Below are positions 1 to 22,826 of a stretch of DNA of 64,000 nt, in pieces. Under the pieces are notes generated by a model. That model saw nothing but the letters and a program-made list of their open reading frames with translations, made no database searches and was not told the DNA's origin. The stretch is from Tilletia caries (Eukaryota > Basidiomycota > Exobasidiomycetes > Tilletiales > Tilletiaceae). The translations under genes were made by a program, and so were the position numbers. The stretch covers positions 1-64,000 of the forward strand of contig JALUTQ010000005.1 in the NCBI GenBank assembly GCA_032718865.1, given 5' to 3'. Position 1 is the stretch's first letter; every line of letters begins with the position of its first letter.

Positions 1-1130
1 AAACTTAGTAGGAATGTAGTATGTAAGGTGCTTGAGGTGCGTGTTTAACAAATTCGGCGGGGACTATGGACCAGTGGTAGGAAGTTTGATTCCTGTATCA
101 CTCCAAGTCCCTTGTTCGAATCCGCGTATGGTCGTCAATTTTTCGCCGATTTTTTCGACGATTTTTTGGCATTATTTTCCCGCAGTCCCCTTAGTGGGTC
201 GGTCAGACGGGTATATCCTATTTAGGGAACGGCTTAGGCCTAGTAATGCCAAAAATTGACATTTTCAAAAGTAGAACACCGATGGCTAGTATAAGGTTCC
301 AGCACCTTATACGCAGAAGTATCGTCTCGATTAACTAGTCTAGTACAAAGACAGTTCTAGAGCGATCACCGGTTAATAAACATTGCACAATCTGATTTGT
401 ACTTTCTGTGAATCCATTTATGACTTAGAGTTACAAATGGAGAATGAACGATGACGCCATCCTATATGGGACCATCGACATAGACAGAAAGACAAAAAGA
501 AGAAACAAACCTCTCTGAGACCTATATCCCTACATCTCGGCTACCTGAGACTTATGACGAATCACCGACTTAGCTCCGAAGGACTCCCAATTTGGTTGAG
601 GTCCCCACACAAATTTGGCTGTGGTAATCGGCCTGTCGTCGGTCTCTGAATTAAGACCCAGCACTGCCACGTCAGTACTCGAATGAGAACCCCCTGAAAA
701 GGGAGCTAGGACCCATCGGCTGACACTGAGATGAAAGGTCATGCGGATCATTCTGAGAAAAAGGGTACTTCGATCCAAAGGCCGAGGGCATGATTTGAGG
801 GCACACCCCAAAGCCACAACGCCATCAGAAATTTGAGGGACTCCCCAAATTAGTTACCCTTCTTTCTTCTGTTGGGACAAGTTCACTTGGACTTTCTGGG
901 CGCGATCACGTCTTCGGAACATCGTAGAACCCCGTAGAAAGCGCACCTTGACAGGGATGCCCAACAGAAATCAGAGAAGTCCCCGTAGGGGATCCAAAAG
1001 GTATAAAGACGACGCCTGAAGGAGTCGGTTTGAGGACGAAACAGTAAGCGCACCTGTAGCCACGTCTTACTCGCCATCCTCGACTCCTCTTCAAGTCTCC
1101 CTCAAGTTGTCACTTCACTTCTTACTTTCA
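1..1130 (+). mobile_element. PLE unit A, 3' region only (cut by window edge)
   Basis: This is the 3' untranslated part of a telomeric Penelope-like unit. It aligns from base 1 with the sequence just after the reverse transcriptase stop in the other units (about 4195, 8359, 13668, 17886, 20602). It ends at CTTACTTTCA and abuts unit B with only a CCCTA between them. It contains the 72-base tRNA-like element (62-133), the GTATAAGGT/ACCTTATAC hairpin region and a damaged hammerhead (1001-1070). Many one-base differences from the other copies suggest decay or poor consensus. Confidence 0.85.
1001..1070 (+). ncRNA. Damaged hammerhead (unit A copy)
   Basis: Stem I, stem III and GAAA are kept. The CTGAAGA box reads CTGAAGG and stem II reads AGTCGG against GAGGAC. 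The core is broken or the read is wrong. Cleavage is not expected as written. Confidence 0.6.
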
Positions 1131-1160
1131 CCCTACCTCACCTCGACAACACCTTTTACG

Positions 1161-4100
1161 ATGAGTACTGTAGTTCCCCCTTCTCCTACTCCTCTCTCCT
1201 CTCCCTTCCCCCACATCCCTCCCCCCACGCCTGGAGCGCAAGCTCTGCGGCTGACCAATCTGTGACGCTTGGACGTCGAAGGACTCCATGGTGGCTCGGA
1301 GCCCAGTCAGACTACCATCAGGGGTATCTGACAAGCAGGTATCCCTCGGGACCTGCTTCAGCTAAGCTGAGCCTGCCCGACCTTGAGAATATCACGAGAG
1401 AGCACCTCGCAAGAGCGTCCTCCGTGTATTCAAAAATACTTCAAGGCCAGGAAAACTTGGCTGCGTTGGAACGTGCAAAGGCCCTAGGCCCAGACCACTT
1501 CCCTCCTGCCATTAAAGGCACAGTGCACTCTCCTCCTCTCCAGATTAGTAAGGAAGCTTTGGAGTCAAACCCAGATGCTTTCCAAACTCTTCAGGAAAGG
1601 ATGGCTGAGAAGAAGGAAAGATGCTTGAGGTTCTACCTCAACATTCTGATCGATGCTAGGAAGAAGACGGAAGTCGACCAGCTGGTCGTGAGGGCAATAC
1701 TCAGGCCCTCCTCCTAAACCTTCCGTAGTGCACTGGAAGCCAAAGCTGAGGCTCTGAAGGATCATGTTGGATCAGACATTCCCCTCGTCAGAGGTAAAGT
1801 GGAGGTCCTCATGACAACCTTTGCTAAAGATCTCGATAAACTTTACCTTCAAGCGGCTAACAAGTCACTTAAGGACAAAGAATTTAAAGAATCTAAGCAA
1901 CAGAAAGCCTGAAGCTCAGCTTGCACTCCAAGAAAAGGTAAATCGCTGCAACAAGCAGTTGGTGAACTGGTCAAGGAGTCGCTCGCTAAAGGCACTTCGA
2001 AAAGCAAAGCACCGGCCCAGCCATTCAAAGGCAAGGGAAAAGGTAAAGCAAAATCGAGTGTCCACAAAGGGAAGAAGCCGAACAACAAAAAGCTAAAGGT
2101 TCAAAAGACCAAGGCTAAGTCTAAGGCCCCCGGCAAAAAGAACAAGTCCAAAGTCCCCTGAGGGCAACTGGTCGGTACCTTCTAACTTTGATATAGCAAA
2201 GATAAGTACTTACGCGGTGGAATTCTAACTACTGCCTCCCTTTCAGAACGAACGCTGTTCCTCGCAAGACATTCCTCACTGGAATATATCGACTCAAGAT
2301 CCTTCAACGATCAAGTCCATAACCTTTCGAAGACACCGGTCCCACACCCTGTACAGAGAATTATCTCTTACAATATGAAATTCATTCCCACTCCTAACCC
2401 AAAGGAAGAACTTTGGAAGAATTCATATGGGGACTTCGTTCGAAGACTAAGATGGAAATGGGCTTACCGTAAGAATCAATACAAGAAAGAATTTAACCCT
2501 AGAATTCCATATTGTATCTAACACGGAAGCACCTAAGGGCAATGCTAAATTTGAAAAGGAATTAGCAAAGGCTATGCCATCTTAGAATCTTTAATGAGTA
2601 AGAAACTCACTCGGCCTAACCCACCAGATTTCTTTGGCCACCCATAAAGACCCTGGACATCTTCTTAAGAGTGAGTCCTTACTAATTCTACCTACAGATA
2701 AGAATATGGGTATGGCAATCGTACCGGTCGAGTGGTACTATAAAGAAGCCTTAAGACAACTGACCGACAAGGCAGTTTACAAGGAGAAGTGGAAAGAGAC
2801 CAGATTGGTTAGATGACAGAAGATGGATCAAGGAAACCATTTTACAAACTTGGAGGGTCCTTGACCCTTCCAGGGTGAACGTAAGTGGCTACTTGTGAGA
2901 TCCGATGTAGAATCATCCCTTCCTTACTTTAAAGTTACTTCCTAAAGTACATAAGAGTCCTGTCCTAGGAAGACCTATAGTGCCTAGCTTTAATACATTC
3001 TATACGAATGCATCCAATCTGGGTTGCAGAAAAACTTAAGGTCATAGTCAAGGACTACCCTTGGATCCTTAAGGACACGACTACCTTCTTACAAACCCTG
3101 CCAATGAGATATACTTCCATTGGATCTCCAGACCCCTGAAGAGGACATCTGGCTGATTTCAGGAGACGTTGAAGCAATGTACCCCTAGCATCCCTACAGA
3201 CTGGGGTCTAGAATGCATGGCAAATATACTTAAACGCTCCTCTCTGCCTATAGAGACCACTAACTCTAGTACTAAAATTACTAGAAAAGATTCTTCGTAA
3301 TAACTACTTTACCTTTATGGGAAAGTACTACCTACAAGTTAAAGGCACAGCCATGGGCACCTCGTGTGCTCCCATGTATGCCAACTTGGTTATGGCAGAA
3401 GCCGAGTATACTGGGACATCTCAGACTAACTCGGGACAGGGACAGAACATAAAGTACTATGGCAGGTATCTTGATGACATCTTTGTGGTAGTCAGAGGCA
3501 ACAAAGACTCTCCACAAAACTTCATCGATAACTTTGAAAGCGAGCATAGTAACTTTAAGTTCACCTGGAATGTTTCAAAAAGCTCAATGACCTTCTTAGA
3601 TGTTGAAGTCGTAACTGCTAAAGTTAAAGACAACATTCAACTCTAACAAAAGACATATCAAAAGCCCACGAATGCATACCAGTATATACCATGGTCCTCG
3701 TATCATCCACTACATGTTAAGAAAAGCATGGATAAAAAGCTGAACTGCTACGACATGTAAGGAACTGCTCAGAATTTCGAACAGCTTCTTAGAGATACGG
3801 AAAAAGTTCTATCTTAGACTGCGTGCACGAGGTTACCCTCACGGGTTCCTCAACAAAGTCTTCCTAACGGTCGATTATCAGAACACTCGTGCATTCACCT
3901 TAACAGGGAAGACAGAGTGTACTCCAACTGAGAAAGACAAGGTTGAAACTCTCATCTTTAAGAGTACATATAATCCCTTATGGGAAGGTACTAACATGAA
4001 GACAGTATGGGATGCTATTCTAACGACTTGGGAAAGTCTAGAATTTCTTCCAACTAACACTAGAGTCATACATAGCCAAAGTAAACCTCCCGCTCTAGGA

Positions 4101-4166
4101 GACTTATTCAACCGTAAGAACAAAGAGACCATAGAAAGGTTTAAGGATAACATTGTTAACTCTTAA
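1161..4166 (+). pseudogene. PLE polyprotein of unit B, many frameshifts
   Basis: Same product as in unit C: Lys-rich N-terminal region followed by a Penelope-type reverse transcriptase. The frame breaks many times. Recognisable pieces are the N-terminal helical region (1343-1717), the Lys-rich tract (1990-2150), the pre-RT DKNMGMAIVP block (2697-2740) and the catalytic GTAMGTSCAP and YLDD blocks (3343-3480). Some breaks are at homopolymers, but others are not (for example near 1903, 2219, 2508 and 3776). So at least part of the damage may be real. As written it cannot encode an active enzyme. Confidence 0.85.
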
Positions 4167-4255
4167 CTTAAGAAAGTACCATATGGATACTATAAACTTA
4201 GTAGGAATGTAGTATATGAGTGCTTGAGGGTAAGTAGTTTAACAAATTCGGCGAG

Positions 4256-4327
4256 GACTATGGACCAGTGGTAGGAAGTTTGATTCCTGTATCACTCCAA
4301 GTCCCTTGTTCGAATCCGCGTATGGTC
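4256..4327 (+). other. tRNA-like element in PLE 3' region (unit B copy)
   Basis: A 72-base segment with tRNA spacing. The ends GACTATG and TATGGTC pair over 7 bp with two G-U wobbles. It has a D-loop-like AGTGGTA and a canonical B-box/T-loop GTTCGAATCC. The T-stem is poor (3 of 5 pairs) and the anticodon arm does not form. A stronger alternative fold pairs AGTGGTA with TATCACT and GGAA with TTCC. Other copies are at 62-133, 8420-8491, 13732-13803, 17949-18020 and 20664-20735, with the two boxes unchanged. I infer a structured or Pol III-like motif, not a working tRNA. Confidence 0.45.
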
Positions 4328-5190
4328 GTCAATTTTTCGCCGATCGACGATGGCATTATTTTCCCGCAGTCCCCTTAGTGGGTCGGTCAGACGGGTATAT
4401 CCTATTTAGGGAACGGCTTAGGCCTAGTAATGCCAAAAATTGACATTTTCAAAAGTAGAACACCGATGGCTAGTATAAGGTTCCAGCACCTTATACATAG
4501 AGAAAGTATCGTCTCGATTAACTAGTCTAGTACAAAGACAGCTCTAAGAGCGATCACCGGTTAGTAACTAGAAAGCCATACACAATCTGATTTGTACTTT
4601 CTGTGAATCCATTTATGACTTAGAGTTACAAATGGAGAATGAACGATGACGCCATCCTATATGGGACCATCGACATAGACAGAAAGACAGAAGAAACAAA
4701 CCTCTCTGAGACCTATATCCCCACATCTCGGCTACCTGAGACTTATGACAGATCACCGACTTAGCCCCGAAAGGACCCAATTTGGTTGAGGTCCCCACAC
4801 CCCCAAATTTGGCTGTGGTAATCGGCTATCCGTCGGTCTCCTGATTAAGACCCAGCACTGCCACGTCAGTACTCGAATGAGAACTGAAAAGGGAGCTAGG
4901 ACCCATCGGCTGACACCGAGATGAAAGGTCATACGGATCATTCTGAGAGGGGTACTTCGATCCAAAGGCCGAGGGCACTTAATTTGGGGCACCACCCCAA
5001 AGCCACAACGCCACATCGAAATTTGAGGGACTCCCCCAAATTAGTTACCCTTCTTTCTTCTGTTGGGACAAGTTCACTTAGTTTTCTGGGGCGCGATGCG
5101 TCTTCGGAACATCGTAGAACCCCGTAGAAAGCGCACCTTGACAGGGATGCCCAACAGAAATCAGAGAAGTCCCCGTAGGGGATCCAAAAG

Positions 5191-5260
5191 GTATAAAGAC
5201 GACGCCTGAAGAGTCCAGTTTGAGGACGAAACAGTAAGCGCACCTGTAGCCACGTCTTAC
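5191..5260 (+). ncRNA. Hammerhead ribozyme, type I (unit B copy)
   Basis: All conserved core parts are present in order. CTGAAGA (5206-5212) fits the CUGANGA box. Stem II is GTCC/GGAC around a 7-base loop (5213-5227), followed by GAAA (5228-5231). Stem III is ACAG/CTGT (5231-5234 with 5244-5247). The cleavage triplet is GTA, with the cut predicted after A5248. Stem I closes the ends: GC/GC next to the core, a 2x2 internal loop, then AAGACG (5196-5201) with CGTCTT (5253-5258). The internal loop in stem I faces loop II, as in natural fast hammerheads. Penelope-like elements of animals are known to carry type I hammerheads. Activity is untested here. Confidence 0.8.
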
Positions 5261-5350
5261 TCGCCATCCTCGACTCCTCTTCAAGTCTCCCTCAAGTTGT
5301 CACTTCACTTCTTACTTTCACCCTACTCCACCTCGACAACACCTTTCACG

Positions 5351-8330
5351 ATGAGTACTGTAGTTCCCCCTTCTCCTACTCCTCTCTCCTCTCCCTTCCC
5401 CCACATCCCTCCCCCCACGCCTGGAGCGCAAGCTCTACGTGACCAATCTGGCACGGCCATGGACGTCGAAGGACTCCATGGTGGCTCAGGCGGTCAGACT
5501 ACCATCAAGGTATCTGACAAGCAGTATCCCTCGGGACCTGCTTCAGCTAAGCTGAGCCTGCCCGACCTTGAGAATATCACGAGAGAGCACCTCGCAAGAG
5601 CGTCCTCCGTGTATTCAAAATACTTCAAGGCCAGGGAAAACTTGGCTGCGTTGGAACGTGCAAAGGCCCTAGGCCCAGACCACTTCCCTCCTGCCATTAA
5701 AGGCACAGTGCACTCTCCTCCTCTCCAGATTAGTAAGGAAGCTTTGGAGTCAAACCCAGATGCTTTCCAAACTCTTCAGGAAAGGATGGCTGAGAAAGAA
5801 GGAAGAATGCTTGAGGTTCTACCTCAACATTCTGATCGATGCTAGGAAGACGGAAGTCGACCAGCTGGTCATTGAGGGCAATACTCAGGCCCTCCTCCTA
5901 AACCTTCGTAGTGCACTGGAAGCCAAAGCTGAGGCTCTGAAGGATCATGTTGGATCAGACATTCCCCTCGTCGAGAGGTAAAGTGGAGGTCCTCACGACA
6001 GCCTTTGCTAAAGATCTCGATAAACTTTACCTTCAAGCGGCTAACAAGTCACTTAAGGAAAAAGAATTTAAAGAATCTAAGCAACAGAAAGCCTATGAAG
6101 CTCAGCTTGCACTCCAAGAAAAAGGTAAATCGCTGCAACAAGCAGTTGGTGAACTGGTCAAGGAGTCGCTCGCTAAAGGCACTTCGAAAAGCAAAGCACC
6201 GGCCCAGCCATTCAAAGGCAAGGGAAAAGGTAAAGCAAAATCGAGTGTCCACAAAGGGAAGAAGCCAGACAACAAAAAGCTAAAGGTTCAAAAGACCAAG
6301 GCTAAGTCTAAGGCCCCCGGCAAAAAGAACAAGTCCAAAGTCCCTAAGGGCAACTGGTCAGTACCTTCTAACTTTGATATAGCAAAGATAAGTACTTACC
6401 CAGTGGAATTCTTTACTGCCTCCCTTTCAGAACGAACGCTGTTCCTCGCAAGACATTCCTCACTGGAATATATCGACTCAAGATCCTTCAACGATCAAGT
6501 CCATAACCTTTCGAAGACACCGGTCCCACACCCTGTACAGAGAATTATCTCTTACAATATGAAATTCATTCCCACTCCTAACCCAAAGGAAGAACTTTGG
6601 AAGAATTCATATGGGGACTTCGTTCGAAGACTAAGATGGAAATGGGCTTACCGTAAGAATCAATACAAGAAAGAATTTAACCCTAAATTCCATATTGTAT
6701 CTAACACGGAAGCACCTAAAGGGCAATGCTAAATTTGAAAAAGGAATTAGCAAAGGCTATGCCATCTTAGAATCTTTAATGAGTAAGAAACTCACTCGGC
6801 CTAACCCACCGATACATGCCATAAAGACCCTGGACATCTTCTTAAGAGAAGAGTCCTTACTAATTCTACCTACAGATAAGAATATGGGTATGGCAATCGT
6901 ACCGGTCGAGTGGTACTATAAAGAAGCCTTAAGACAACTGACCGACAAGGCAGTTTACAAGGAAGTGGAAGAACCAGATTGGTTAGATGACAGAAGATGG
7001 ATCAAGGAAACCATTTACAAACTTGGAGGGTCCTTGACCCTTCAGGAACGTAAGTGGCTACTTGTGAGATCCGATGTAGAATCATCCCTTCCTTACTTTA
7101 AGTTACTTCCCTAAAAGTACATAAGAGTCCTGTCCTAGGAAGACCTATAGTGCCTAGCTTTAATACATTCTATACGAATGCATCAATCTGGGTTGCAGAA
7201 AAACTTAAGGTCATAGTCAAGGACTACCCTTGGATCCTTAAGGACACGACTACCTTCTTACAAACCCTGCCAATGAGATATACTTCCATTGGATCTCCAG
7301 ACCCTGAAGAGGACATCTGGCTGATTTCAGGAGACGTTGAAGCAATGTACCCTAGCATCCCTACAGACTGGGGTCTAGAATGCATGGCAAATATACTTAA
7401 ACGCTCCTCTCTGCCTATAGAGACCATAACTCTAGTACTAAAATTACTAGAAAAGATTCTTCGTAATAACTACTTTACCTTTATGGGAAAGTACTACCTA
7501 CAAGTTAAAGGCACAGCCATGGGCACCTCGTGTGCTCCCATGTATGCCAACTTGGTTATGGCAGAAGCCGAGTATACTGGGACATCTCAGACTAACTCGG
7601 GACAGGGACAGAACATAAAGTACTATGGCAGGTATCTTGATGACATCTTTGTGGTAGTCAGAGGCAACAAAGACTCTCCACAAAACTTCATCGATAACTT
7701 TGAAAGCGAGCATAGTAACTTTAAGTTCACCTGGAATGTTTCAAAAAGCTCAATGACCTTCTTAGATGTTGAAGTCGTAACTGCTAAAGTTAAAGACAAC
7801 ATTCAACTCCTAACAAAAACATATCAAAAGCCCATGAATGCATACCAGTATATACCATGGTCCTCGTATCATCCACTACATGTTAAGAAAGCATGGATAA
7901 AAGCTGAACTGCTACGACATGTAAGGAACTGCTCAGAATTGAACAGCTTCTTAGAGATACGGAAAAAAAGTTCTATCTTAGACTGCGTGCACGAGGTTAC
8001 CCTCACGGGTTCCTCAACAAAGTCTTCCTAACGGTCGATTATCAGAACACTCGTGCATTCACCTTAACAGGGAAGACAGAGTGTACTCCAACTGAGAAAG
8101 ACAAGGTTGAAACTCTCATCTTTAAGAGTACATATAATCCCTTATGGGAAGGTACTAACATGAAGACAGTATGGGATGCTATTCTAACGACTTGGGAAAG
8201 TCTAGAATTTCTTCCAACTAACACTAGAGTCATACATAGCCAAAGTAAACCTCCCGCTCTAGGAGACTTATTCAACCGTAAGAACAAAGAGACCATAGAA
8301 AGGTTTAAGGATAACATTGTTAACTCTTAA
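5351..8330 (+). pseudogene. PLE Lys-rich/reverse transcriptase polyprotein (unit C, five +1-type breaks)
   Basis: Judged against the other copies, one frame of about 990 residues runs from ATG 5351 to TAA 8328. It opens with a Pro/Ser-rich start (residues 1-40) and a helical, charged segment (60-210). A Lys/Gly/Ser-rich basic tract follows (about 278-330). The RT begins with the DKNMGMAIVP pre-RT block (about 509) and LPKVHKSPVLGRPIVPS (about 585). The catalytic motif SGDVEAMYPS (about 660) supplies one Asp, then come KGTAMGTSCAP (about 719) and YLDD (about 761). It ends with a thumb-like GDLFNRKNKE. The Penelope family normally adds a C-terminal GIY-YIG nuclease; none is encoded before the stop. 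Breaks at about 5793, 5971, 6718, 7111 and 7962 are single extra bases or A-run changes. Its predicted role is self-priming of RNA copying at chromosome ends. Confidence 0.85.
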
Positions 8331-8638
8331 CTTAAGAAAGTACCATATGGATACTATAAACTTAGTAGGAATGTAGTATATGAGTGCTTGAGGGTAAGTA
8401 GTTTAACAAATTCGGCGGGGACTATGGACCAGTGGTAGGAAGTTTGATTCCTGTATCACTCCAAGTCCCTTGTTCGAATCCGCGTATGGTCGTCAATTTT
8501 TCGCCGATTGACGATGGCATTATTTTCCCGCAGTCCCCCTTAGTGGGTCGGTCAGACGGGTATATCCTATTTAGGGAACGGCTTAGGCCTAGTAATGCCA
8601 AAAAAATTGACATTTTCAAAAAGTAGAACACCGATGGC

Positions 8639-8662
8639 TAGTATAAGGTTCCAGCACCTTAT
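8639..8662 (+). other. Perfect 9-bp hairpin in PLE 3' region
   Basis: GTATAAGGT and ACCTTATAC pair perfectly around the 6-base loop TCCAGC. The hairpin is present in units C, F, G and H with the same sequence. Truncated unit J starts at the 3' arm of this hairpin (about 21929), as if reverse transcription stopped in or just before the loop. Confidence 0.7.
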
Positions 8663-9371
8663 ACATAGAGAAGTATCGTCTCGATTAACTAGTCTAGTAC
8701 AAAGACAGCTCTAAGAGCGATCACCGGTTAGTAACTAGAAAGCCATACACAATCTGATTTGTACTTTCTGTGAATCCATTTATGACTTAGAGTTACAAAT
8801 GGAGAATGAACGATGACGCCATCCTATATGGGACCATCGACATAGACAGAAAGACAAAAAAGAAGAAACAAACCTCTCTGAGACCTATATCCCCACATCT
8901 CGGCTACCTGAGACTTATGACAGATCACCGACTTAGCCCCGAAAGACCCCCAATTTGGTTGAGGTCCCCACACCCCCAAATTTGGCTGTGGTAATCGGCT
9001 ATCCGTCGGTCTCCTGATTAAGACCCAGCACTGCCACGTCAGTACTCGAATGAGAACCCCCCTGAAAAGGGAGCTAGGACCCATCGGCTGACACCGAGAT
9101 GAAAGGTCATACGGATCATTCTGAGAAAAAGGGTACTTCGATCCAAAGGCCGAGGGCACTTAATTTGGGGCACCACCCCAAAGCCACAACGCCACATCGA
9201 AATTTGAGGGACTCCCCCAAATTAGTTACCCTTCTTTCTTCTGTTGGGACAAGTTCACTTAGTTTTCTGGGGCGCGATGCGTCTTCGGAACATCGTAGAA
9301 CCCCGTAGAAAGCGCACCTTGACAGGGGATGCCCAACAGAAATCAGAGAAGTCCCCGTAGGGGATCCAAAG

Positions 9372-10645: not shown

Positions 10646-13642
10646 ATGAGTACTGTAGTTCCCCCCTTCTCCTACTCCTCTCTCCTCTCCCTTCCCCCAC
10701 ATCCCTCCCCCCACGCCTGGAGCGCAAGCTCTACGTGACCAATCTGGCACGGCCATGGACGTCGAAGGACTCCATGGTGGCTCAGGCGGTCAGACTACCA
10801 TCAAGGTATCTGACAAGCAGTATCCCTCGGGACCTGCTTCAGCTAAGCTGAGCCTGCCCGACCTTGAGAATATCACGAGAGAGCACCTCGCAAGAGCGTC
10901 CTCCGTGTATTCAAAATACTTCAAGGCCAGGGAAAACTTGGCTGCGTTGGAACGTGCAAAGGCCCTAGGCCCAGACCACTTCCCTCCTGCCATTAAAGGC
11001 ACAGTGCACTCTCCTCCTCTCCAGATTAGTAAGGAAGCTTTGGAGTCAAACCCAGATGCTTTCCAAACTCTTCAGGAAAGGATGGCTGAGAAGAAGGAAG
11101 AATGCTTGAGGTTCTACCTCAACATTCTGATCGATGCTAGGAAGACGGAAGTCGACCAGCTGGTCATTGAGGGCAATACTCAGGCCCTCCTCCTAAACCT
11201 TCGTAGTGCACTGGAAGCCAAAGCTGAGGCTCTGAAGGATCATGTTGGATCAGACATTCCCCTCGTCAGAGGTAAAGTGGAGGTCCTCATGACAACCTTT
11301 GCTAAAGATCTCGATAAACTTTACCTTCAAGCGGCTAACAAGTCACTTAAGGAAAAAAAAGAATTTAAAGAATCTAAGCAACAGAAAGCCTATGAAGCTC
11401 AGCTTGCACTCCAAGAAAAAAAGGTAAATCGCTGCAACAAGCAGTTGGTGAACTGGTCAAGGAGTCGCTCGCTAAAGGCACTTCGAAAAGCAAAGCACCG
11501 GCCCAGCCATTCAAAGGCAAGGGAAAAGGTAAAGCAAAATCGAGTGTCCACAAAGGGAAGAAGCCAGACAACAAAAAAGCTAAAGGTTCAAAAGACCAAG
11601 GCTAAGTCTAAGGCCCCCCGGCAAAAAAAAGAACAAGTCCAAAGTCCCTAAGGGCAACTGGTCAGTACCTTCTAACTTTGATATAGCAAAGATAAGTACT
11701 TACCCAGTGGAATTCTTTACTGCCTCCCTTTCAGAACGAACGCTGTTCCTCGCAAGACATTCCTCACTGGAATATATCGACTCAAGATCCTTCAACGATC
11801 AAGTCCATAACCTTTCGAAGACACCGGTCCCACACCCTGTACAGAGAATTATCTCTTACAATATGAAATTCATTCCCACTCCTAACCCAAAGGAAGAACT
11901 TTGGAAGAATTCATATGGGGACTTCGTTCGAAGACTAAGATGGAAATGGGCTTACCGTAAGAATCAATACAAGAAAGAATTTAACCCTAAATTCCATATT
12001 GTATCTAACACGGAAGCACCTAAGGGCAATGCTAAATTTGAAAAAAAGGAATTAGCAAAGGCTATGCCATCTTAGAATCTTTAATGAGTAAGAAACTCAC
12101 TCGGCCTAACCCACCGATACATGCCATAAAGACCCTGGACATCTTCTTAAGAGAAGAGTCCTTACTAATTCTACCTACAGATAAGAATATGGGTATGGCA
12201 ATCGTACCGGTCGAGTGGTACTATAAAGAAGCCTTAAGACAACTGACCGACAAGGCAGTTTACAAGGAAGTGGAAGAACCAGATTGGTTAGATGACAGAA
12301 GATGGATCAAGGAAACCATTTACAAACTTGGAGGGTCCTTGACCCTTCAGGAACGTAAGTGGCTACTTGTGAGATCCGATGTAGAATCATCCCTTCCTTA
12401 CTTTAAGTTACTTCCTAAAGTACATAAGAGTCCTGTCCTAGGAAGACCTATAGTGCCTAGCTTTAATACATTCTATACGAATGCATCAATCTGGGTTGCA
12501 GAAAAAAAACTTAAGGTCATAGTCAAGGACTACCCTTGGATCCTTAAGGACACGACTACCTTCTTACAAACCCTGCCAATGAGATATACTTCCATTGGAT
12601 CTCCAGACCCTGAAGAGGACATCTGGCTGATTTCAGGAGACGTTGAAGCAATGTACCCTAGCATCCCTACAGACTGGGGTCTAGAATGCATGGCAAATAT
12701 ACTTAAACGCTCCTCTCTGCCTATAGAGACCATAACTCTAGTACTAAAATTACTAGAAAAGATTCTTCGTAATAACTACTTTACCTTTATGGGAAAGTAC
12801 TACCTACAAGTTAAAGGCACAGCCATGGGCACCTCGTGTGCTCCCATGTATGCCAACTTGGTTATGGCAGAAGCCGAGTATACTGGGACATCTCAGACTA
12901 ACTCGGGACAGGGACAGAACATAAAGTACTATGGCAGGTATCTTGATGACATCTTTGTGGTAGTCAGAGGCAACAAAGACTCTCCACAAAACTTCATCGA
13001 TAACTTTGAAAGCGAGCATAGTAACTTTAAGTTCACCTGGAATGTTTCAAAAAAAGCTCAATGACCTTCTTAGATGTTGAAGTCGTAACTGCTAAAGTTA
13101 AAGACAACATTCAACTCCTAACAAAAAAAACATATCAAAAGCCCATGAATGCATACCAGTATATACCATGGTCCTCGTATCATCCACTACATGTTAAGAA
13201 AGCATGGATAAAAGCTGAACTGCTACGACATGTAAGGAACTGCTCAGAATTGAACAGCTTCTTAGAGATACGGAAAAAAAAGTTCTATCTTAGACTGCGT
13301 GCACGAGGTTACCCTCACGGGTTCCTCAACAAAGTCTTCCTAACGGTCGATTATCAGAACACTCGTGCATTCACCTTAACAGGGAAGACAGAGTGTACTC
13401 CAACTGAGAAAGACAAGGTTGAAACTCTCATCTTTAAGAGTACATATAATCCCTTATGGGAAGGTACTAACATGAAGACAGTATGGGATGCTATTCTAAC
13501 GACTTGGGAAAGTCTAGAATTTCTTCCAACTAACACTAGAGTCATACATAGCCAAAGTAAACCTCCCGCTCTAGGAGACTTATTCAACCGTAAGAACAAA
13601 GAGACCATAGAAAGGTTTAAGGATAACATTGTTAACTCTTAA
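10646..13642 (+). pseudogene. PLE polyprotein of unit F, broken at homopolymers
   Basis: Same polyprotein as unit C. The long open pieces are 10755-11651 (N-terminal region), 11707-12075, 12084-13064 (RT through YLDD) and 13061-13642 (thumb). The breaks coincide with runs: C6 near 10661, A7 near 11418, an A8 near 11625, A7 near 12041 and A7 near 13050. The unit C sequence has the frame-keeping length at most of these sites. The RT core 12084-13064 is intact and shows all catalytic blocks. If the run lengths are wrong, this copy could be functional. Confidence 0.85.
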
Positions 13643-14702
13643 CTTAAGAAAGTACCATATGGATACTATAAACTTAGTAGGAATGTAGTATATGAGTGCT
13701 TGAGGGTAAGTAGTTTAACAAATTCGGCGGGGACTATGGACCAGTGGTAGGAAGTTTGATTCCTGTATCACTCCAAGTCCCTTGTTCGAATCCGCGTATG
13801 GTCGTCAATTTTTTTCGCCGATTTTTTTCGACGATTTTTTTGGCATTATTTTTCCCGCAGTCCCCTTAGTGGGTCGGTCAGACGGGTATATCCTATTTAG
13901 GGAACGGCTTAGGCCTAGTAATGCCAAAAAAAATTGACATTTTTCAAAAGTAGAACACCGATGGCTAGTATAAGGTTCCAGCACCTTATACATAGAGAAG
14001 TATCGTCTCGATTAACTAGTCTAGTACAAAGACAGTTCTAAGAGCGATCACCGGTTAGTAACTAGAAAGCCATACACAATCTGATTTGTACTTTCTGTGA
14101 ATCCATTTATGACTTAGAGTTACAAATGGAGAATGAACGATGACGCCATCCTATATGGGACCATCGACATAGACAGAAAGACAAAAAAGAAGAAACAAAC
14201 CTCTCTGAGACCTATATCCCCACATCTCGGCTACCTGAGACTTATGACAGATCACCGACTTAGCTCCGAAGGACCCCCAATTTGGTTGAGGTCCCCACAC
14301 CCCCAAATTTGGCTGTGGTAATCGGCTATCCGTCGGTCTCCTGATTAAGACCCAGCACTGCCACGTCAGTACTCGAATGAGAACCCCCCTGAAAAGGGAG
14401 CTAGGACCCATCGGCTGACACTGAGATGAAAGGTCATACGGATCATTCTGAGAAAAAAAGGGTACTTCGATCCAAAGGCCGAGGGCACTTAATTTGGGGG
14501 CACCACCCCAAAGCCACAACGCCACATCGAAATTTGAGGGACTCCCCCAAATTAGTTACCCTTCTTTCTTCTGTTGGGACAAGTTCACTTAGTTTTTCTG
14601 GGGCGCGATGCGTCTTCGGAACATCGTAGAACCCCGTAGAAAGCGCACCTTGACAGGGATGCCCAACAGAAATCAGAGAAGTCCCCGTAGGGGATCCAAA
14701 AG

Positions 14703-14772
14703 GTATAAAGACGACGCCTGAAGAGTCCAGTTTGAGGACGAAACAGTAAGCGCACCTGTAGCCACGTCTTAC
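14703..14772 (+). ncRNA. Hammerhead ribozyme (unit F copy)
   Basis: Identical in core and stems to the copy at 5191-5260. The cut is predicted after A14760. Confidence 0.78.
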
Positions 14773-14863
14773 TCGCCATCCTCGACTCCTCTTCAAGTCT
14801 CCCTCAAGTTGTCACTTCACTTCTTACTTTCACCCTACTCCACCTCGACAACACCTTTTTACG

Positions 14864-17859
14864 ATGAGTACTGTAGTTCCCCCCTTCTCCTACTCCTCTC
14901 TCCTCTCCCTTCCCCCACATCCCTCCCCCCACGCCTGGAGCGCAAGCTCTACGTGACCAATCTGGCACGGCCATGGACGTCGAAGGACTCCATGGTGGCT
15001 CAGGCGGTCAGACTACCATCAAGGTATCTGACAAGCAGTATCCCTCGGGACCTGCTTCAGCTAAGCTGAGCCTGCCCGACCTTGAGAATATCACGAGAGA
15101 GCACCTCGCAAGAGCGTCCTCCGTGTATTCAAAATACTTCAAGGCCAGGGAAAACTTGGCTGCGTTGGAACGTGCAAAGGCCCTAGGCCCAGACCACTTC
15201 CCTCCTGCCATTAAAGGCACAGTGCACTCTCCTCCTCTCCAGATTAGTAAGGAAGCTTTGGAGTCAAACCCAGATGCTTTCCAAACTCTTCAGGAAAGGA
15301 TGGCTGAGAAGAAGGAAGAATGCTTGAGGTTCTACCTCAACATTCTGATCGATGCTAGGAAGACGGAAGTCGACCAGCTGGTCATTGAGGGCAATACTCA
15401 GGCCCTCCTCCTAAACCTTCGTAGTGCACTGGAAGCCAAAGCTGAGGCTCTGAAGGATCATGTTGGATCAGACATTCCCCTCGTCAGAGGTAAAGTGGAG
15501 GTCCTCATGACAACCTTTGCTAAAGATCTCGATAAACTTTACCTTCAAGCGGCTAACAAGTCACTTAAGGAAAAAAAAGAATTTAAAGAATCTAAGCAAC
15601 AGAAAGCCTATGAAGCTCAGCTTGCACTCCAAGAAAAAAAGGTAAATCGCTGCAACAAGCAGTTGGTGAACTGGTCAAGGAGTCGCTCGCTAAAGGCACT
15701 TCGAAAAGCAAAGCACCGGCCCAGCCATTCAAAGGCAAGGGAAAAGGTAAAGCAAAATCGAGTGTCCACAAAGGGAAGAAGCCAGACAACAAAAAAAAGC
15801 TAAAGGTTCAAAAGACCAAGGCTAAGTCTAAGGCCCCCCGGCAAAAAAAAGAACAAGTCCAAAGTCCCTAAGGGCAACTGGTCAGTACCTTCTAACTTTG
15901 ATATAGCAAAGATAAGTACTTACCCAGTGGAATTCTTTACTGCCTCCCTTTCAGAACGAACGCTGTTCCTCGCAAGACATTCCTCACTGGAATATATCGA
16001 CTCAAGATCCTTCAACGATCAAGTCCATAACCTTTCGAAGACACCGGTCCCACACCCTGTACAGAGAATTATCTCTTACAATATGAAATTCATTCCCACT
16101 CCTAACCCAAAGGAAGAACTTTGGAAGAATTCATATGGGGACTTCGTTCGAAGACTAAGATGGAAATGGGCTTACCGTAAGAATCAATACAAGAAAGAAT
16201 TTAACCCTAAATTCCATATTGTATCTAACACGGAAGCACCTAAGGGCAATGCTAAATTTGAAAAAAAGGAATTAGCAAAGGCTATGCCATCTTAGAATCT
16301 TTAATGAGTAAGAAACTCACTCGGCCTAACCCACCGATACATGCCATAAAGACCCTGGACATCTTCTTAAGAGAAGAGTCCTTACTAATTCTACCTACAG
16401 ATAAGAATATGGGTATGGCAATCGTACCGGTCGAGTGGTACTATAAAGAAGCCTTAAGACAACTGACCGACAAGGCAGTTTACAAGGAAGTGGAAGAACC
16501 AGATTGGTTAGATGACAGAAGATGGATCAAGGAAACCATTTACAAACTTGGAGGGTCCTTGACCCTTCAGGAACGTAAGTGGCTACTTGTGAGATCCGAT
16601 GTAGAATCATCCCTTCCTTACTTTAAGTTACTTCCTAAAGTACATAAGAGTCCTGTCCTAGGAAGACCTATAGTGCCTAGCTTTAATACATTCTATACGA
16701 ATGCATCAATCTGGGTTGCAGAAAAAAACTTAAGGTCATAGTCAAGGACTACCCTTGGATCCTTAAGGACACGACTACCTTCTTACAAACCCTGCCAATG
16801 AGATATACTTCCATTGGATCTCCAGACCCTGAAGAGGACATCTGGCTGATTTCAGGAGACGTTGAAGCAATGTACCCTAGCATCCCTACAGACTGGGGTC
16901 TAGAATGCATGGCAAATATACTTAAACGCTCCTCTCTGCCTATAGAGACCATAACTCTAGTACTAAAATTACTAGAAAAGATTCTTCGTAATAACTACTT
17001 TACCTTTATGGGAAAGTACTACCTACAAGTTAAAGGCACAGCCATGGGCACCTCGTGTGCTCCCATGTATGCCAACTTGGTTATGGCAGAAGCCGAGTAT
17101 ACTGGGACATCTCAGACTAACTCGGGACAGGGACAGAACATAAAGTACTATGGCAGGTATCTTGATGACATCTTTGTGGTAGTCAGAGGCAACAAAGACT
17201 CTCCACAAAACTTCATCGATAACTTTGAAAGCGAGCATAGTAACTTTAAGTTCACCTGGAATGTTTCAAAAAAAGCTCAATGACCTTCTTAGATGTTGAA
17301 GTCGTAACTGCTAAAGTTAAAGACAACATTCAACTCCTAACAAAAAAACATATCAAAAGCCCATGAATGCATACCAGTATATACCATGGTCCTCGTATCA
17401 TCCACTACATGTTAAGAAAGCATGGATAAAAGCTGAACTGCTACGACATGTAAGGAACTGCTCAGAATTGAACAGCTTCTTAGAGATACGGAAAAAAAGT
17501 TCTATCTTAGACTGCGTGCACGAGGTTACCCTCACGGGTTCCTCAACAAAGTCTTCCTAACGGTCGATTATCAGAACACTCGTGCATTCACCTTAACAGG
17601 GAAGACAGAGTGTACTCCAACTGAGAAAGACAAGGTTGAAACTCTCATCTTTAAGAGTACATATAATCCCTTATGGGAAGGTACTAACATGAAGACAGTA
17701 TGGGATGCTATTCTAACGACTTGGGAAAGTCTAGAATTTCTTCCAACTAACACTAGAGTCATACATAGCCAAAGTAAACCTCCCGCTCTAGGAGACTTAT
17801 TCAACCGTAAGAACAAAGAGACCATAGAAAGGTTTAAGGATAACATTGTTAACTCTTAA
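14864..17859 (+). pseudogene. PLE polyprotein of unit G, broken at homopolymers
   Basis: Open pieces are 14973-15803, 15927-16295, 16304-16741, 16798-17283 and 17363-17560, in the same order as unit F. There is an additional break near 16729 (A-run in GCAGAAAAAAAC) that separates the pre-RT blocks from the catalytic Asp block. The end of the protein is also out of frame because of an A7 run near 17492. Confidence 0.85.
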
Positions 17860-18920
17860 CTTAAGAAAGTACCATATGGATACTATAAACTTAGTAGGAA
17901 TGTAGTATATGAGTGCTTGAGGGTAAGTAGTTTAACAAATTCGGCGGGGACTATGGACCAGTGGTAGGAAGTTTGATTCCTGTATCACTCCAAGTCCCTT
18001 GTTCGAATCCGCGTATGGTCGTCAATTTTTTTCGCCGATTTTTTTCGACGATTTTTTTGGCATTATTTTTCCCGCAGTCCCCTTAGTGGGTCGGTCAGAC
18101 GGGTATATCCTATTTAGGGAACGGCTTAGGCCTAGTAATGCCAAAAAAAATTGACATTTTCAAAAAGTAGAACACCGATGGCTAGTATAAGGTTCCAGCA
18201 CCTTATACATAGAGAAGTATCGTCTCGATTAACTAGTCTAGTACAAAGACAGTTCTAAGAGCGATCACCGGTTAGTAACTAGAAAGCCATACACAATCTG
18301 ATTTGTACTTTCTGTGAATCCATTTATGACTTAGAGTTACAAATGGAGAATGAACGATGACGCCATCCTATATGGGACCATCGACATAGACAGAAAGACA
18401 AAAAAGAAGAAACAAACCTCTCTGAGACCTATATCCCCACATCTCGGCTACCTGAGACTTATGACAGATCACCGACTTAGCTCCGAAGGACCCCCAATTT
18501 GGTTGAGGTCCCCACACCCCCAAATTTGGCTGTGGTAATCGGCTATCCGTCGGTCTCCTGATTAAGACCCAGCACTGCCACGTCAGTACTCGAATGAGAA
18601 CCCCCCTGAAAAGGGAGCTAGGACCCATCGGCTGACACTGAGATGAAAGGTCATACGGATCATTCTGAGAAAAAAAAGGGTACTTCGATCCAAAGGCCGA
18701 GGGCACTTAATTTGGGGCACCACCCCAAAGCCACAACGCCACATCGAAATTTGAGGGACTCCCCCCAAATTAGTTACCCTTCTTTCTTCTGTTGGGACAA
18801 GTTCACTTAGTTTTTCTGGGGCGCGATGCGTCTTCGGAACATCGTAGAACCCCGTAGAAAGCGCACCTTGACAGGGATGCCCAACAGAAATCAGAGAAGT
18901 CCCCGTAGGGGATCCAAAAG

Positions 18921-18990
18921 GTATAAAGACGACGCCTGAAGAGTCCAGTTTGAGGACGAAACAGTAAGCGCACCTGTAGCCACGTCTTAC
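18921..18990 (+). ncRNA. Hammerhead ribozyme (unit G copy)
   Basis: Identical in core and stems to the copy at 5191-5260. The cut is predicted after A18978. Confidence 0.78.
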
Positions 18991-19050
18991 TCGCCATCCT
19001 CGACTCCTCTTCAAGTCTCCCTCAAGTTGTCACTTCACTTCTTACTTTCA

Positions 19051-19096
19051 CCCTAACCCTAACCCCTAACCCTAACCCTAACCCTAACCCTAACCC
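19051..19096 (+). repeat. Telomere repeat tract between units G and H
   Basis: About 7 CCCTAA units with one CCCCTAA. The tract ends in CCCTTAC, which overlaps CCTTAC of unit H. Confidence 0.95.
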
Positions 19097-19123
19097 TTAC
19101 TAATTCTACCTACAGATAAGAAT

Positions 19124-20574
19124 ATGGGTATGGCAATCGTACCGGTCGAGTGGTACTATAAAGAAGCCTTAAGACAACTGACCGACAAGGCAGTTTACAA
19201 GGAAGTGGAAGAACCAGATTGGTTAGATGACAGAAGATGGATCAAGGAAACCATTTACAAACTTGGAGGGTCCTTGACCCTTCAGGAACGTAAGTGGCTA
19301 CTTGTGAGATCCGATGTAGAATCATCCCTTCCTTACTTTAAGTTACTTCCTAAAGTACATAAGAGTCCTGTCCTAGGAAGACCTATAGTGCCTAGCTTTA
19401 ATACATTCTATACGAATGCATCAATCTGGGTTGCAGAAAAAAAACTTAAGGTCATAGTCAAGGACTACCCTTGGATCCTTAAGGACACGACTACCTTCTT
19501 ACAAACCCTGCCAATGAGATATACTTCCATTGGATCTCCAGACCCTGAAGAGGACATCTGGCTGATTTCAGGAGACGTTGAAGCAATGTACCCTAGCATC
19601 CCTACAGACTGGGGTCTAGAATGCATGGCAAATATACTTAAACGCTCCTCTCTGCCTATAGAGACCATAACTCTAGTACTAAAAATTACTAGAAAAGATT
19701 CTTCGTAATAACTACTTTACCTTTATGGGAAAGTACTACCTACAAGTTAAAGGCACAGCCATGGGCACCTCGTGTGCTCCCATGTATGCCAACTTGGTTA
19801 TGGCAGAAGCCGAGTATACTGGGACATCTCAGACTAACTCGGGACAGGGACAGAACATAAAGTACTATGGCAGGTATCTTGATGACATCTTTGTGGTAGT
19901 CAGAGGCAACAAAGACTCTCCACAAAAACTTCATCGATAACTTTGAAAGCGAGCATAGTAACTTTAAGTTCACCTGGAATGTTTCAAAAAGCTCAATGAC
20001 CTTCTTAGATGTTGAAGTCGTAACTGCTAAAGTTAAAGACAACATTCAACTCCTAACAAAGACATATCAAAAGCCCACGAATGCATACCAGTATATACCA
20101 TGGTCCTCGTATCATCCACTACATGTTAAGAAAGCATGGATAAAAGCTGAACTGCTACGACATGTAAGGAACTGCTCAGAATTGAACAGCTTCTTAGAGA
20201 TACGGAAAAAAAAGTTCTATCTTAGACTGCGTGCACGAGGTTACCCTCACGGGTTCCTCAACAAAGTCTTCCTAACGGTCGATTATCAGAACACTCGTGC
20301 ATTCACCTTAACAGGGAAGACAGAGTGTACTCCAACTGAGAAAGACAAGGTTGAAACTCTCATCTTTAAGAGTACATATAATCCCTTATGGGAAGGTACT
20401 AACATGAAGACAGTATGGGATGCTATTCTAACGACTTGGGAAAGTCTAGAATTTCTTCCAACTAACACTAGAGTCATACATAGCCAAAGTAAACCTCCCG
20501 CTCTAGGAGACTTATTCAACCGTAAGAACAAAGAGACCATAGAAAGGTTTAAGGATAACATTGTTAACTCTTAA
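19124..20574 (+). pseudogene. 5'-truncated PLE reverse transcriptase (unit H)
   Basis: It begins at the pre-RT block (DKNMGMAIVP) and lacks the whole Lys-rich N-terminal region. Open pieces are 19124-19708 (to past the catalytic Asp block), 19725-19940 (GTAMGTSCAP and YLDD) and 19996-20574 (thumb to stop). They are separated by A-run changes near 19680 (AAAAA) and 19924. The three pieces use A5 at 19985 where F and G have A7, so this copy confirms the shorter run. It has no start in its own sequence and is presumably dead. Confidence 0.88.
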
Positions 20575-21628
20575 CTTAAGAAAGTACCATATGGATACTA
20601 TAAACTTAGTAGGAATGTAGTATATGAGTGCTTGAGGGTAAGTAGTTTAACAAATTCGGCGGGGACTATGGACCAGTGGTAGGAAGTTTGATTCCTGTAT
20701 CACTCCAAGTCCCTTGTTCGAATCCGCGTATGGTCGTCAATTTTTCGCCGATTTTTTCGACGATTTTTGGCATTATTTTCCCGCAGTCCCCTTAGTGGGT
20801 CGGTCAGACGGGTATATCCTATTTAGGGAACGGCTTAGGCCTAGTAATGCCAAAAAAAATTGACATTTTTCAAAAGTAGAACACCGATGGCTAGTATAAG
20901 GTTCCAGCACCTTATACATAGAGAAGTATCGTCTCGATTAACTAGTCTAGTACAAAGACAGTTCTAAGAGCGATCACCGGTTAGTAACTAGAAAGCCATA
21001 CACAATCTGATTTGTACTTTCTGTGAATCCATTTATGACTTAGAGTTACAAATGGAGAATGAACGATGACGCCATCCTATATGGGACCATCGACATAGAC
21101 AGAAAGACAAAAAGAAGAAACAAACCTCTCTGAGACCTATATCCCCACATCTCGGCTACCTGAGACTTATGACAGATCACCGACTTAGCCCCGAAAGACC
21201 CCCCAATTTGGTTGAGGTCCCCACACCCCCCAAATTTGGCTGTGGTAATCGGCTATCCGTCGGTCTCCTGATTAAGACCCAGCACTGCCACGTCAGTACT
21301 CGAATGAGAACCCCCTGAAAAGGGAGCTAGGACCCATCGGCTGACACCGAGATGAAAGGTCATACGGATCATTCTGAGAAAAAAAAGGGTACTTCGATCC
21401 AAAGGCCGAGGGCACTTAATTTGGGGCACCACCCCAAAGCCACAACGCCACATCGAAATTTGAGGGACTCCCCCAAATTAGTTACCCTTCTTTCTTCTGT
21501 TGGGACAAGTTCACTTAGTTTTTCTGGGGCGCGATGCGTCTTCGGAACATCGTAGAACCCCGTAGAAAGCGCACCTTGACAGGGATGCCCAACAGAAATC
21601 AGAGAAGTCCCCGTAGGGGATCCAAAAG

Positions 21629-21698
21629 GTATAAAGACGACGCCTGAAGAGTCCAGTTTGAGGACGAAACAGTAAGCGCACCTGTAGCCACGTCTTAC
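21629..21698 (+). ncRNA. Hammerhead ribozyme (unit H copy)
   Basis: Identical in core and stems to the copy at 5191-5260. The cut is predicted after A21686. Confidence 0.78.
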
Positions 21699-21757
21699 TC
21701 GCCATCCTCGACTCCTCTTCAAGTCTCCCTCAAGTTGTCACTTCACTTCTTACTTTC

Positions 21758-21841
21758 ACCCTAACCCTAACCCTAACCCTAACCCTAACCCTAACCCTAA
21801 CCCTAACCCCTAACCCTAACCCTAACCTAACCCTAACCCTA
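21758..21841 (+). repeat. Telomere repeat tract between units H and I
   Basis: About 14 CCCTAA units with minor variants (CCCCTAA, CCTAA). The final CCCTA meets GCCACG of unit I. Confidence 0.95.
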
Positions 21842-21911
21842 GCCACGTCTTACTCGCCATCCTCGACTCCTCTTCAAGTCTCCCTCAAGTTGTCACTTCA
21901 CTTCTTACTTT
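21842..21911 (+). mobile_element. PLE unit I, 70-base 3' stub starting at the hammerhead cut
   Basis: The stub begins at GCCACGTCTTAC, the exact first base after the predicted hammerhead cleavage site in every other unit. It runs to the standard ACTTT end, and telomere repeats flank both sides. The preceding TA can belong to either the telomere or the element. Confidence 0.9.
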
Positions 21912-21930
21912 AACCCTAACCCCTAACCCA
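21912..21930 (+). repeat. Short telomere tract between units I and J
   Basis: About three units (AACCCTAACCCCTAACCC) before the CACCTTATAC start of unit J. Confidence 0.9.
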
Positions 21931-22776
21931 CCTTATACATAGAGAAGTATCGTCTCGATTAACTAGTCTAGTACAAAGACAGTTCTAAGAGCGATCACCG
22001 GTTAGTAACTAGAAAGCCATACACAATCTGATTTGTACTTTCTGTGAATCCATTTATGACTTAGAGTTACAAATGGAAAATGAACGATGACGCCATCCTA
22101 TATGGGACCATCGACATAGACAGAAAGACAAAAAGAAGAAACAAACCTCTCTGAGACCTATATCCCCACATCTCGGCTACCTGAGACTTATGACAGATCA
22201 CCGACTTAGCTCCGAAGGACCCCCCAATTTGGTTGAGGTCCCCACACCCCCAAATTTGGCTGTGGTAATCGGCTATCCGTCGGTCTCCTGATTAAGACCC
22301 AGCACTGCCACGTCAGTACTCGAATGAGAACCCCCCCTGAAAAGGGAGCTAGGACCCATCGGCTGACACTGAGATGAAAGGTCATACGGATCATTCTGAG
22401 AAAAAGGGTACTTCGATCCAAAGGCCGAGGGCACTTAATTTGGGGCACCACCCCAAAGCCACAACGCCACATCGAAATTTGAGGGACTCCCCCCAAATTA
22501 GTTACCCTTCTTTCTTCTGTTGGGACAAGTTCACTTAGTTTTTCTGGGGCGCGATGCGTCTTCGGAACATCGTAGAACCCCGTAGAAAGCGCACCTTGAC
22601 AGGGATGCCCAACAGAAATCAGAGAAGTCCCCGTAGGGGATCCAAAAGGTATAAAGACGACGCCTGAAGAGTCCAGTTTGAGGACGAAACAGTAAGCGCA
22701 CCTGTAGCCACGTCTTACTCGCCATCCTCGACTCCTCTTCAAGTCTCCCTCAAGTTGTCACTTCACTTCTTACTTT
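21929..22776 (+). mobile_element. PLE unit J, innermost copy, 5'-truncated
   Basis: About 850 bp of the 3' region. It starts at the 3' arm of the GTATAAGGT/ACCTTATAC hairpin and ends at ACTTT followed by telomere repeats. It is the copy closest to the unique chromosome, so it is the oldest visible attachment in this array. Confidence 0.93.
22629..22698 (+). ncRNA. Hammerhead ribozyme (unit J copy)
   Basis: Identical in core and stems to the copy at 5191-5260. The cut is predicted after A22686. Confidence 0.78.
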
Positions 22777-22826
22777 AACCCTAACCCTAACCCTAACCCT
22801 AACCCCCTTCTAACCCCCTAACCCTG
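22777..22826 (+). repeat. Innermost telomere tract, the ancestral chromosome tip
   Basis: CCCTAA units with two variants (CCCCCTTCTAA, CCCCCTAA) join unit J to single-copy sequence. This marks where the chromosome was last healed before the retroelement array grew. Confidence 0.9.

Follow-up and report, generated by a model that had tools for sequence, protein, structure and literature searches.

Coprina is the name of a group of endonuclease-deficient telomeric Penelope-like elements (PLEs), and telomeric elements of this kind (Athena, Coprina) were reportedly described in fungi, protists, plants and rotifers by Gladyshev and Arkhipova in 2007. In Drosophila, HeT-A, TART and TAHRE are also arranged head to tail at chromosome ends and have their 5′ ends directed outward, like the element reported here, but their reverse transcriptase (RT) belongs to an unrelated class, and Drosophila is without telomerase, whereas the present genome has a telomerase gene and CCCTAA tracts. 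We analyzed the first 64 kb of contig C5 of Tilletia caries (assembly GCA_032718865.1, contig JALUTQ010000005.1, positions 1 to 64,000; hereafter the window), from a genome of 38.1 Mb in 40 contigs. Positions 1–22783 of the window consist of ten pieces of one 4.2-kb unit, all on the plus strand with the 5′ end toward the tip, plus CCCTAA tracts. Judged from its sequence, this unit is very probably a telomere-attaching, endonuclease-deficient Penelope-like retroelement. Endonuclease-deficient telomeric PLEs are a known kind; what is new here is a member with informative joints.

In excerpts of PMC3846280, endonuclease-deficient PLEs are described from some animals, fungi, protists and plants; they apparently prime from exposed 3′ ends, and their truncated 5′ end gains telomere repeats. 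They have in common with the T. caries element the absence of GIY-YIG, the terminal location (largely so in the known ones) and truncated 5′ ends capped by telomere repeats. Terminons, the giant telomeric PLEs of rotifers, share with it a hammerhead motif near the 3′ end, a telomere-complementary sequence downstream, head-to-tail arrays and 5′ truncation by telomere repeats; however, they reach up to 40 kb, whereas this element is 4.2 kb long and no accessory genes were seen in it (excerpts of PMC6431247). Penelope/Poseidon elements, such as PAc of Anolis, share tandem units with a repeated untranslated region (UTR; pLTR), a hammerhead near the unit boundary and an RT akin to telomerase, but they differ in having a GIY-YIG nuclease and in cutting a DNA target (PMC11167929). 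The features by which a PLE is recognized are present in the T. caries element as well: its RT belongs to the PLE/TERT branch, its units are arranged in complete or partial tandem with the UTR repeated, and the pLTR contains, as a motif only, a type I hammerhead. PLEs have also been linked to telomeres in Agaricus (excerpt of PMC7473861).

Terminal location and joints of the units

Genome searches with the 3′UTR, the 3′-end pattern and the RT found no internal and no oppositely oriented unit. All 76 sites listed for the 3′-end pattern are terminal with the 5′ end outward: the 45 forward sites are no farther than 22.8 kb from a left contig end, and the 31 reverse sites no farther than 27.2 kb from a right one. 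A separate search for telomere joints added one 3′-end site, C35:1545130, which is likewise terminal. The 3′UTR matches, at least 49 in number (40 of 74 candidates scored), were all near contig ends, as were the 112 pieces matching the RT, for which all 105 candidates were scored. The element was present at 26 ends (L, left; R, right): C1L, C4L, C4R, C5L, C5R, C6L, C7L, C9L, C10R, C12R, C13R, C21R, C23L, C27L, C27R, C28L, C28R, C30L, C32R, C34L, C35L, C35R, C36R, C39L, C39R and C40R.

The tips were inspected at the left end of all 40 contigs (those of C3 and C19 are N) and at the right end of 29 of the 40. At nine of the 26 element ends (C1L, C4L, C4R, C9L, C10R, C13R, C23L, C28L and C28R), a CCCTAA tract of 82–125 bp lies at the very end of the contig or not more than 20 nt from it, whereas ten begin inside a unit and six have other sequence outermost; this tally covers 25 tips, all but that of C5R. 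Five other ends with a terminal tract (C1R, C7R, C21L, C22L and C36L) gave no element match by 3′UTR, 3′-end or RT search.

The array in the window was mapped piece by piece. The unit at 14838–19055 (4218 bp) serves as the reference, and all unit coordinates refer to it; it begins with CTCCACC, and its 3′UTR terminates in CTTACTTTCACCCTA. Four of the ten pieces are full length. The features are as follows.

1–1135, plus strand: outermost unit, cut by the contig start, 3′ part only (unit 3050–4218)
1139–5325, plus strand: full-length unit 1, indel-rich, low sequence quality likely
5326–9507, plus strand: full-length unit 2, whose 5′ start directly abuts the 3′ end of unit 1
9503–9603, plus strand: CCCTAA tract, a buried former chromosome end; the regular expression matches 9503–9599
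9602–10098, plus strand: 5′-truncated unit (unit 3718–4218)
10094–10171, plus strand: CCCTAA tract of 13 perfect repeats
10172–10620, plus strand: 5′-truncated unit (unit 3766–4218), followed seamlessly by a full unit
10621–14837, plus strand: full-length unit 3
12042–13061, plus strand: longest uninterrupted frame in the window's units, 340 amino acids, RVT_1 at 1.8e-8, motifs GDVEAMYPSI, GTAMGTSCAP and YLDD
14708–14770, plus strand: type I hammerhead ribozyme motif in the 3′UTR of unit 3, predicted cleavage between 14760 and 14761
14838–19055, plus strand: full-length unit 4, with short leader, coding part, 3′UTR of about 1.17 kb and 3′ end CACCCTA
18185–18208, plus strand: inverted repeat GTATAAGG...CCTTATAC in the 3′UTR of unit 4
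19051–19093, plus strand: CCCTAA tract with a C-type joint
19095–21763, plus strand: 5′-truncated unit (unit 1543–4218)
21759–21841, plus strand: CCCTAA tract
21840–21918, plus strand: 79-bp mini-insert (unit 4140–4218), its 5′ end at the predicted hammerhead cleavage site, within 2 nt microhomology
21914–21926: CCCTAA tract, found by regular expression
21929–22783, plus strand: innermost 5′-truncated unit (unit 3362–4218)
22779–22802, plus strand: CCCTAA tract beneath the innermost unit, continued by degenerate repeats up to about 22825
24144–24156: further telomere tract beyond the array

In the window, the sequence CCCTAACCCTAA is found 41 times, whereas shuffles give an expectation of 0.02. 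Copies are 93–99% identical to the tip-most stretch 1–4200 and mostly 98–100% identical to an inner unit. Because the window starts within a unit, the tip of the C5 left end is not assembled. A first-pass annotation, made from the window alone, had proposed an endonuclease-less Penelope-type element limited to contig ends with fixed polarity, and the 76 sites and the survey of the other chromosome ends, with 26 occupied ends and no internal or reversed copies, agree with it. Its estimate of about 20 kb added to the chromosome end, with distal telomere repeats, is confirmed. Its count of ten units, four of them full length, stands, but in place of seven CCCTAA tracts the regular expression gives six plus the degenerate stretch to about 22825, and the truncated copies that it rightly described as having telomere repeats on their distal side number five (9602, 10172, 19095, 21840 and 21929) rather than four. 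What it overlooked is that the full-length 5′ starts fuse directly to the 3′ end of another copy.

The 3′ end of the unit, CACCCTA, is complementary to the telomeric G-strand. At 51 exact telomere joints, the first base of this sequence is A, in the telomeric register, in 39 and C in 12, whereas it is C at all 24 exact element–element joints; the difference is significant by Fisher's test (p = 5e-11), which treats the joints as independent, although some may be duplicates. The count leaves out C23:1339, where the base is A and a single repeat precedes a truncated copy, and C21:1148934, a joint with C and one mismatch; two further tandem joints outside the count also carry C. In the simplest reading, the A at telomere joints derives from the chromosome's G-strand primer ending in GGGTT or GGGTTA, and the base at tandem joints is copied from the element RNA. 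The A/C signature is likely to be the trace of priming by the chromosome's own 3′ end.

The 5′ start of the unit was found 27 times genome-wide (up to 2 mismatches). A listed 3′ end is abutted by 25 of these starts; the remaining two, C34:4491 and C35:1549308, proved on reading to adjoin a 3′ end as well. The boundary CACCCTA/CTCCACC is present at all 27 tandem joints, with small base changes in four (C5:1136, C21, C34 and C35), and in none of the 27 cases does CCCTAA precede a full-length 5′ start. Full-length starts were thus found only within arrays, as would follow from a template that does not terminate at the unit boundary. At the places that were read, 36 truncated starts lie behind telomere repeats, spanning unit 425 to 4153; one further truncated start, unit 3158 on C32R, was not included in the breakpoint tests. 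The non-unit DNA beneath the innermost joints differs between the ends inspected.

Other sequences also occur near contig ends. A second sequence lies between telomere tracts at 22827–24120 of the window and is followed by CCCCTTCTAACCC; related copies are found on C32R, where two of them (L063, L114) are 5′-truncated behind CCCTAA and stop at the same CCCCTTCTAACCC, and the copy in L113 stops at CCCCTTCTAA beside other DNA. This sequence may represent another, infrequent element that attaches to telomeres, or else a duplication within the subtelomere; a minus-strand translation of 22827–23111 was uninformative. C32:1449287–1449400 (L114 1498–1611), roughly 8 kb away from the end of its contig, contains the 5′ end of a large-subunit rRNA gene and, by eye, the apparent end of internal transcribed spacer 2. 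A CCCTAA tract on the distal side of a truncated unit adjoins this fragment, which indicates either ribosomal DNA beyond former telomere repeats or a chimeric assembly there. At C39L, positions 1–1757 (L038, L102) hold a fragment that by eye resembles the pol gene of a long terminal repeat retrotransposon and has a telomere tract and a truncated unit on its proximal side. Over its first 60 bases this fragment is similar to the C40R tip (83%) and, as judged by eye, to the C12R and C30R tips. A cluster of palindrome-like motifs such as TTTTACAGTACTGTAAAGG is present in the subtelomere, at 24510–24850 of the window, and similar-looking sequence begins both ends of C11 (by eye).

Hammerhead motif and truncation points

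By the rules for the hammerhead core, the candidate ribozyme in the 3′UTR is composed of stem I AAGACG/CGUCUU with GC/GC beside the core, CUGAAGA, stem II GUCC/GGAC, GAAA, a 3-bp stem III and the cleavage site UA. A descriptor requiring all core bases and three stems, written after the motif was seen, gave one match in the unit and none in 60 Mb of random sequence with the same base composition as the unit. The Rfam model RF00163 (Hammerhead_1) aligns in register at 13.7 bits (E 0.92), below its gathering score of 34, and this match appeared only with a 101-base query stretch; an Rfam scan of 25 kb at E ≤ 5 gave two weak long non-coding RNA matches and no hammerhead. The exact core pattern is present in seven of the nine copies of the hammerhead region in the window, and the two copies that deviate are in the outer array. 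The predicted cleavage site lies 77 nt before the unit 3′ end, upstream of CACCCTA, and helix III is 3 bp, whereas in Terminons the cleavage site is immediately beside the 3′ end (excerpts of PMC6431247). A 2020 review, in the excerpt consulted, calls the in vivo activity and role of PLE and Terminon hammerheads still a mystery (PMC7761336).

The truncation points were compared with this motif. Five of the 36 fall at unit 4126–4153, compared with 0.6 expected in 4120–4160, a zone chosen post hoc (smoothed null, p = 0.0002), and one of the five, at window position 21840, coincides with the predicted cleavage site, within microhomology. Three of the 36 map to the inverted repeat of the 3′UTR, a hairpin (unit 3351 twice and 3362); both truncations at 3351 are on C40R and may be one duplicated event. 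The hammerhead zone stands out among the breakpoints, and the hairpin does so only by example.

A tRNA-like stretch near the 3′UTR start, at about 13732–13815, was also considered and is at most a tentative lead. It resembles an A-box and B-box by their consensus and is followed by a T run. ARAGORN found no tRNA in it at the default setting or at a 90% threshold and one hit at 80%, but 142 of 1000 shuffles gave a hit likewise.

Reverse transcriptase

The RT frames of the units match RVT_1. A homology search gave 150 proteins at E ≤ 0.001, 120 of which form the listed set, and the closest among the matches listed is a 462-amino-acid fragment at 98% identity. The protein P0002, of 816 amino acids and 64% identical, is a single frame that extends from a basic N-terminal region through the RT and has no nuclease match; in this it differs from endonuclease-less PLEs as described with two open reading frames in excerpts of PMC6431247. 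Across 35 aligned rows, KxHK, GRPIVP, GTAMGT and DD are invariant or nearly so.

A tree of 109 rows was made by a quick method and contains several long branches; besides the element it includes 108 of the 120 listed hits, rows of less than 440 amino acids and P0117 being excluded. It places the element in a supported clade of 30 rows, the labelled members of which come from fungi and include elements of Puccinia, Microbotryum, Pyricularia and Pochonia, and the three rows with a precomputed GIY-YIG domain fall in a different clade. The tree was made without proteins named Coprina or Athena, and RT identity to the nearest named relatives is about 34–36%. The predicted RT fold (pLDDT 86.8) has telomerases as all of its five best PDB matches, with moderate TM-scores of 0.39–0.48 (by query length) and identities of 10–13%; retrons, LINE-1 and others rank below them. 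The RT is telomerase-like and of the PLE/TERT branch.

No GIY-YIG match adjoins any unit, and an RT with Penelope motifs but without this nuclease, as first proposed from the window, is borne out. The six GIY-YIG matches of the genome are C30:531778, which is internal, and five on contig C18. This contig (113.8 kb) has an AT-rich end (by eye), and its five matches are as in a fungal mitochondrial genome with homing endonucleases.

Proposed attachment and array growth, and the telomerase gene of the host

We propose that the G-rich 3′ overhang of a chromosome end would anneal to CACCCUA of the element RNA and prime outward reverse transcription. The RT would proceed upstream until it falls off, sometimes at the hammerhead, and leave a single truncated copy; or it would cross unit boundaries on a template that has no end there (a multi-unit transcript or a circle) and leave a seamless array whose outermost copy is truncated. 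Host telomerase would then add CCCTAA to the new end, and the cycle would repeat. In the Anolis PLE, reverse transcription was initiated internally in vitro, and multi-unit RNA was proposed by the authors (PMC11167929). In view of these data, read-through of multi-unit RNA is favoured as the default, and copying of a circle is regarded as a bold alternative.

The similarity of the units bears on how the arrays grow. The mean number of substitutions within versus between arrays was 2.3 versus 12.2 when the error-rich unit C5L_1 was excluded, a value as low being reached in 0 of 20,000 permutations; it was 4.7 versus 11.9 without C5L_1 and the C28R outer units (p = 0.009) and 8.6 versus 18.4 for all 12 full units (p = 0.006). 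Most of the homogeneity data would suit circle copying, read-through of a homogeneous array and recombination alike. The greater likeness of units within an array is what would be seen if DNA recombination (unequal exchange or break-induced replication between telomeres) mainly amplified the arrays and retrotransposition only seeded them, and the truncation points that are shared (596 on C7L and C36R; 3351 twice on C40R) suggest exchange or duplication. Nevertheless, this explanation is doubtful, as it leaves unexplained both the absence of telomere-capped full-length starts (0 of 27) and the A/C difference between telomere and tandem joints, and of two neighbours on C6L, which are separated by 9 substitutions, one is no more than 3 substitutions away from units on two other contigs. 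The same C6L difference argues against a circle as the template of that pair. In the circle model, the hammerhead would cut a multimeric transcript into monomers that are ligated into circles, and telomere-primed RT would roll around them, laying identical units without a free 5′ end. One hammerhead motif per unit, the seamless joints, the lack of a free full-length start and three consecutive C28R units with 0 substitutions (the fourth has 3) agree with it, and hammerhead circles have a precedent in retrozymes (excerpt of PMC7229834). However, the Anolis PLE inserts in vitro without the hammerhead, mainly from unprocessed RNA, with no reads bounded by the cleavage site (PMC11167929), hammerhead cleavage here is a prediction, and read-through of linear multi-unit RNA accounts for most of the same facts, so we consider the circle model rather unlikely. 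A circle-templated model for telomeric PLEs was not found in the literature searched, although earlier key PLE papers could contain one. If it is true, many identical units would lengthen a chromosome end in one event, the unexplained PLE hammerhead would gain a function, and the absence of free full-length starts would be explained. The dissimilar C6L neighbours and the identical boundary at the tandem joints, apart from the small changes in four, would also fit template jumping, in which each full-length RNA ends at the unit boundary and the RT moves on to another RNA at its 3′ end; but completed RNAs that fail to jump should leave telomere-capped full-length starts, of which there are none, and jumping is accordingly judged unlikely.

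Two further explanations concern the ends as a whole. Collapsed or chimeric repeats in the assembly could account for indel-rich outer copies and for element ends that start inside a unit (ten) or in other sequence (six), but an artefact is scarcely credible given one polarity at 26 ends, breakpoints that mostly differ from end to end and the variety of non-unit DNA under those innermost joints that were read. The first-pass annotation had described a telomere built from these elements, with a possible role as a telomere-maintenance backup, and neither description is supported. PF12009, the telomerase domain, hits once, at C30:1098084, with RT motifs in frames nearby (by eye) and long open exons in the 3.3 kb read; the best-scoring named telomerase homologues are from basidiomycetes, at 38–48% identity. 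With this gene and nine element tips that reach a CCCTAA tract, no maintenance role is demonstrated, and telomerase is not replaced at chromosome ends in the manner of HeT-A. The presence of the element on 26 contig ends would suit a domesticated system backing up telomerase, as would the shorter buried tracts: those under insertions have a median of 54 bp (51 joints, which overlap but differ from the 51 of the A/C count), against 112 bp for terminal tracts (n = 9 element ends). Insertion onto shortened ends or later loss of repeats would give such a difference, and either fits. Together with the telomerase gene and the CCCTAA-ended tips, the five terminal-tract ends without an element match and the lack of an intact frame in any copy seen make such a system very unlikely.

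Some observations weigh against the interpretation of the unit as a telomere-attaching element that grows by telomere-primed reverse transcription. Other sequence is outermost at six element ends (C12R, C27R, C32R, C39L, C39R and C40R). The A/C signature could stem from RNA variants, and some joints are non-independent through exchange between ends at the shared points 596 and 3351. Plain folding of the hammerhead region is not unusually stable (z = 0.10), so the case for the hammerhead rests on the catalytic-core pattern. Clustering over all 36 breakpoints is weak (p 0.04–0.22 by distance), and RNA structure as a general cause of truncation was rejected, as there was no local-folding excess at the breakpoints (p = 0.28). 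No copy was seen with a single uninterrupted frame; open frames at the RT matches reach at most 531 amino acids, and all copies could be dead. Most unit pairs (C5L, C6L, C7L and C28R) show more indels than substitutions, mostly in homopolymers by eye; along 4.2 kb, 8 indels and 2 substitutions separate one pair of neighbouring units. Because of these homopolymer indels, and because the telomerase gene has long open exons, the broken frames are not taken as proof of decay and are likely to reflect poor polishing of repeats, that is, long-read consensus errors.

In summary, dozens of joints show three regularities: the A/C base difference, the lack of any free full-length start and the grouping of some truncations at the ribozyme motif. 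These were not found in the literature searched, although earlier key PLE papers could hold them. The preserved joints provide unusually clear evidence for attachment and array growth in a genome that also carries a telomerase gene, and their three regularities make specific tests possible on how endonuclease-less PLEs attach, how their arrays form and what role the hammerhead has.

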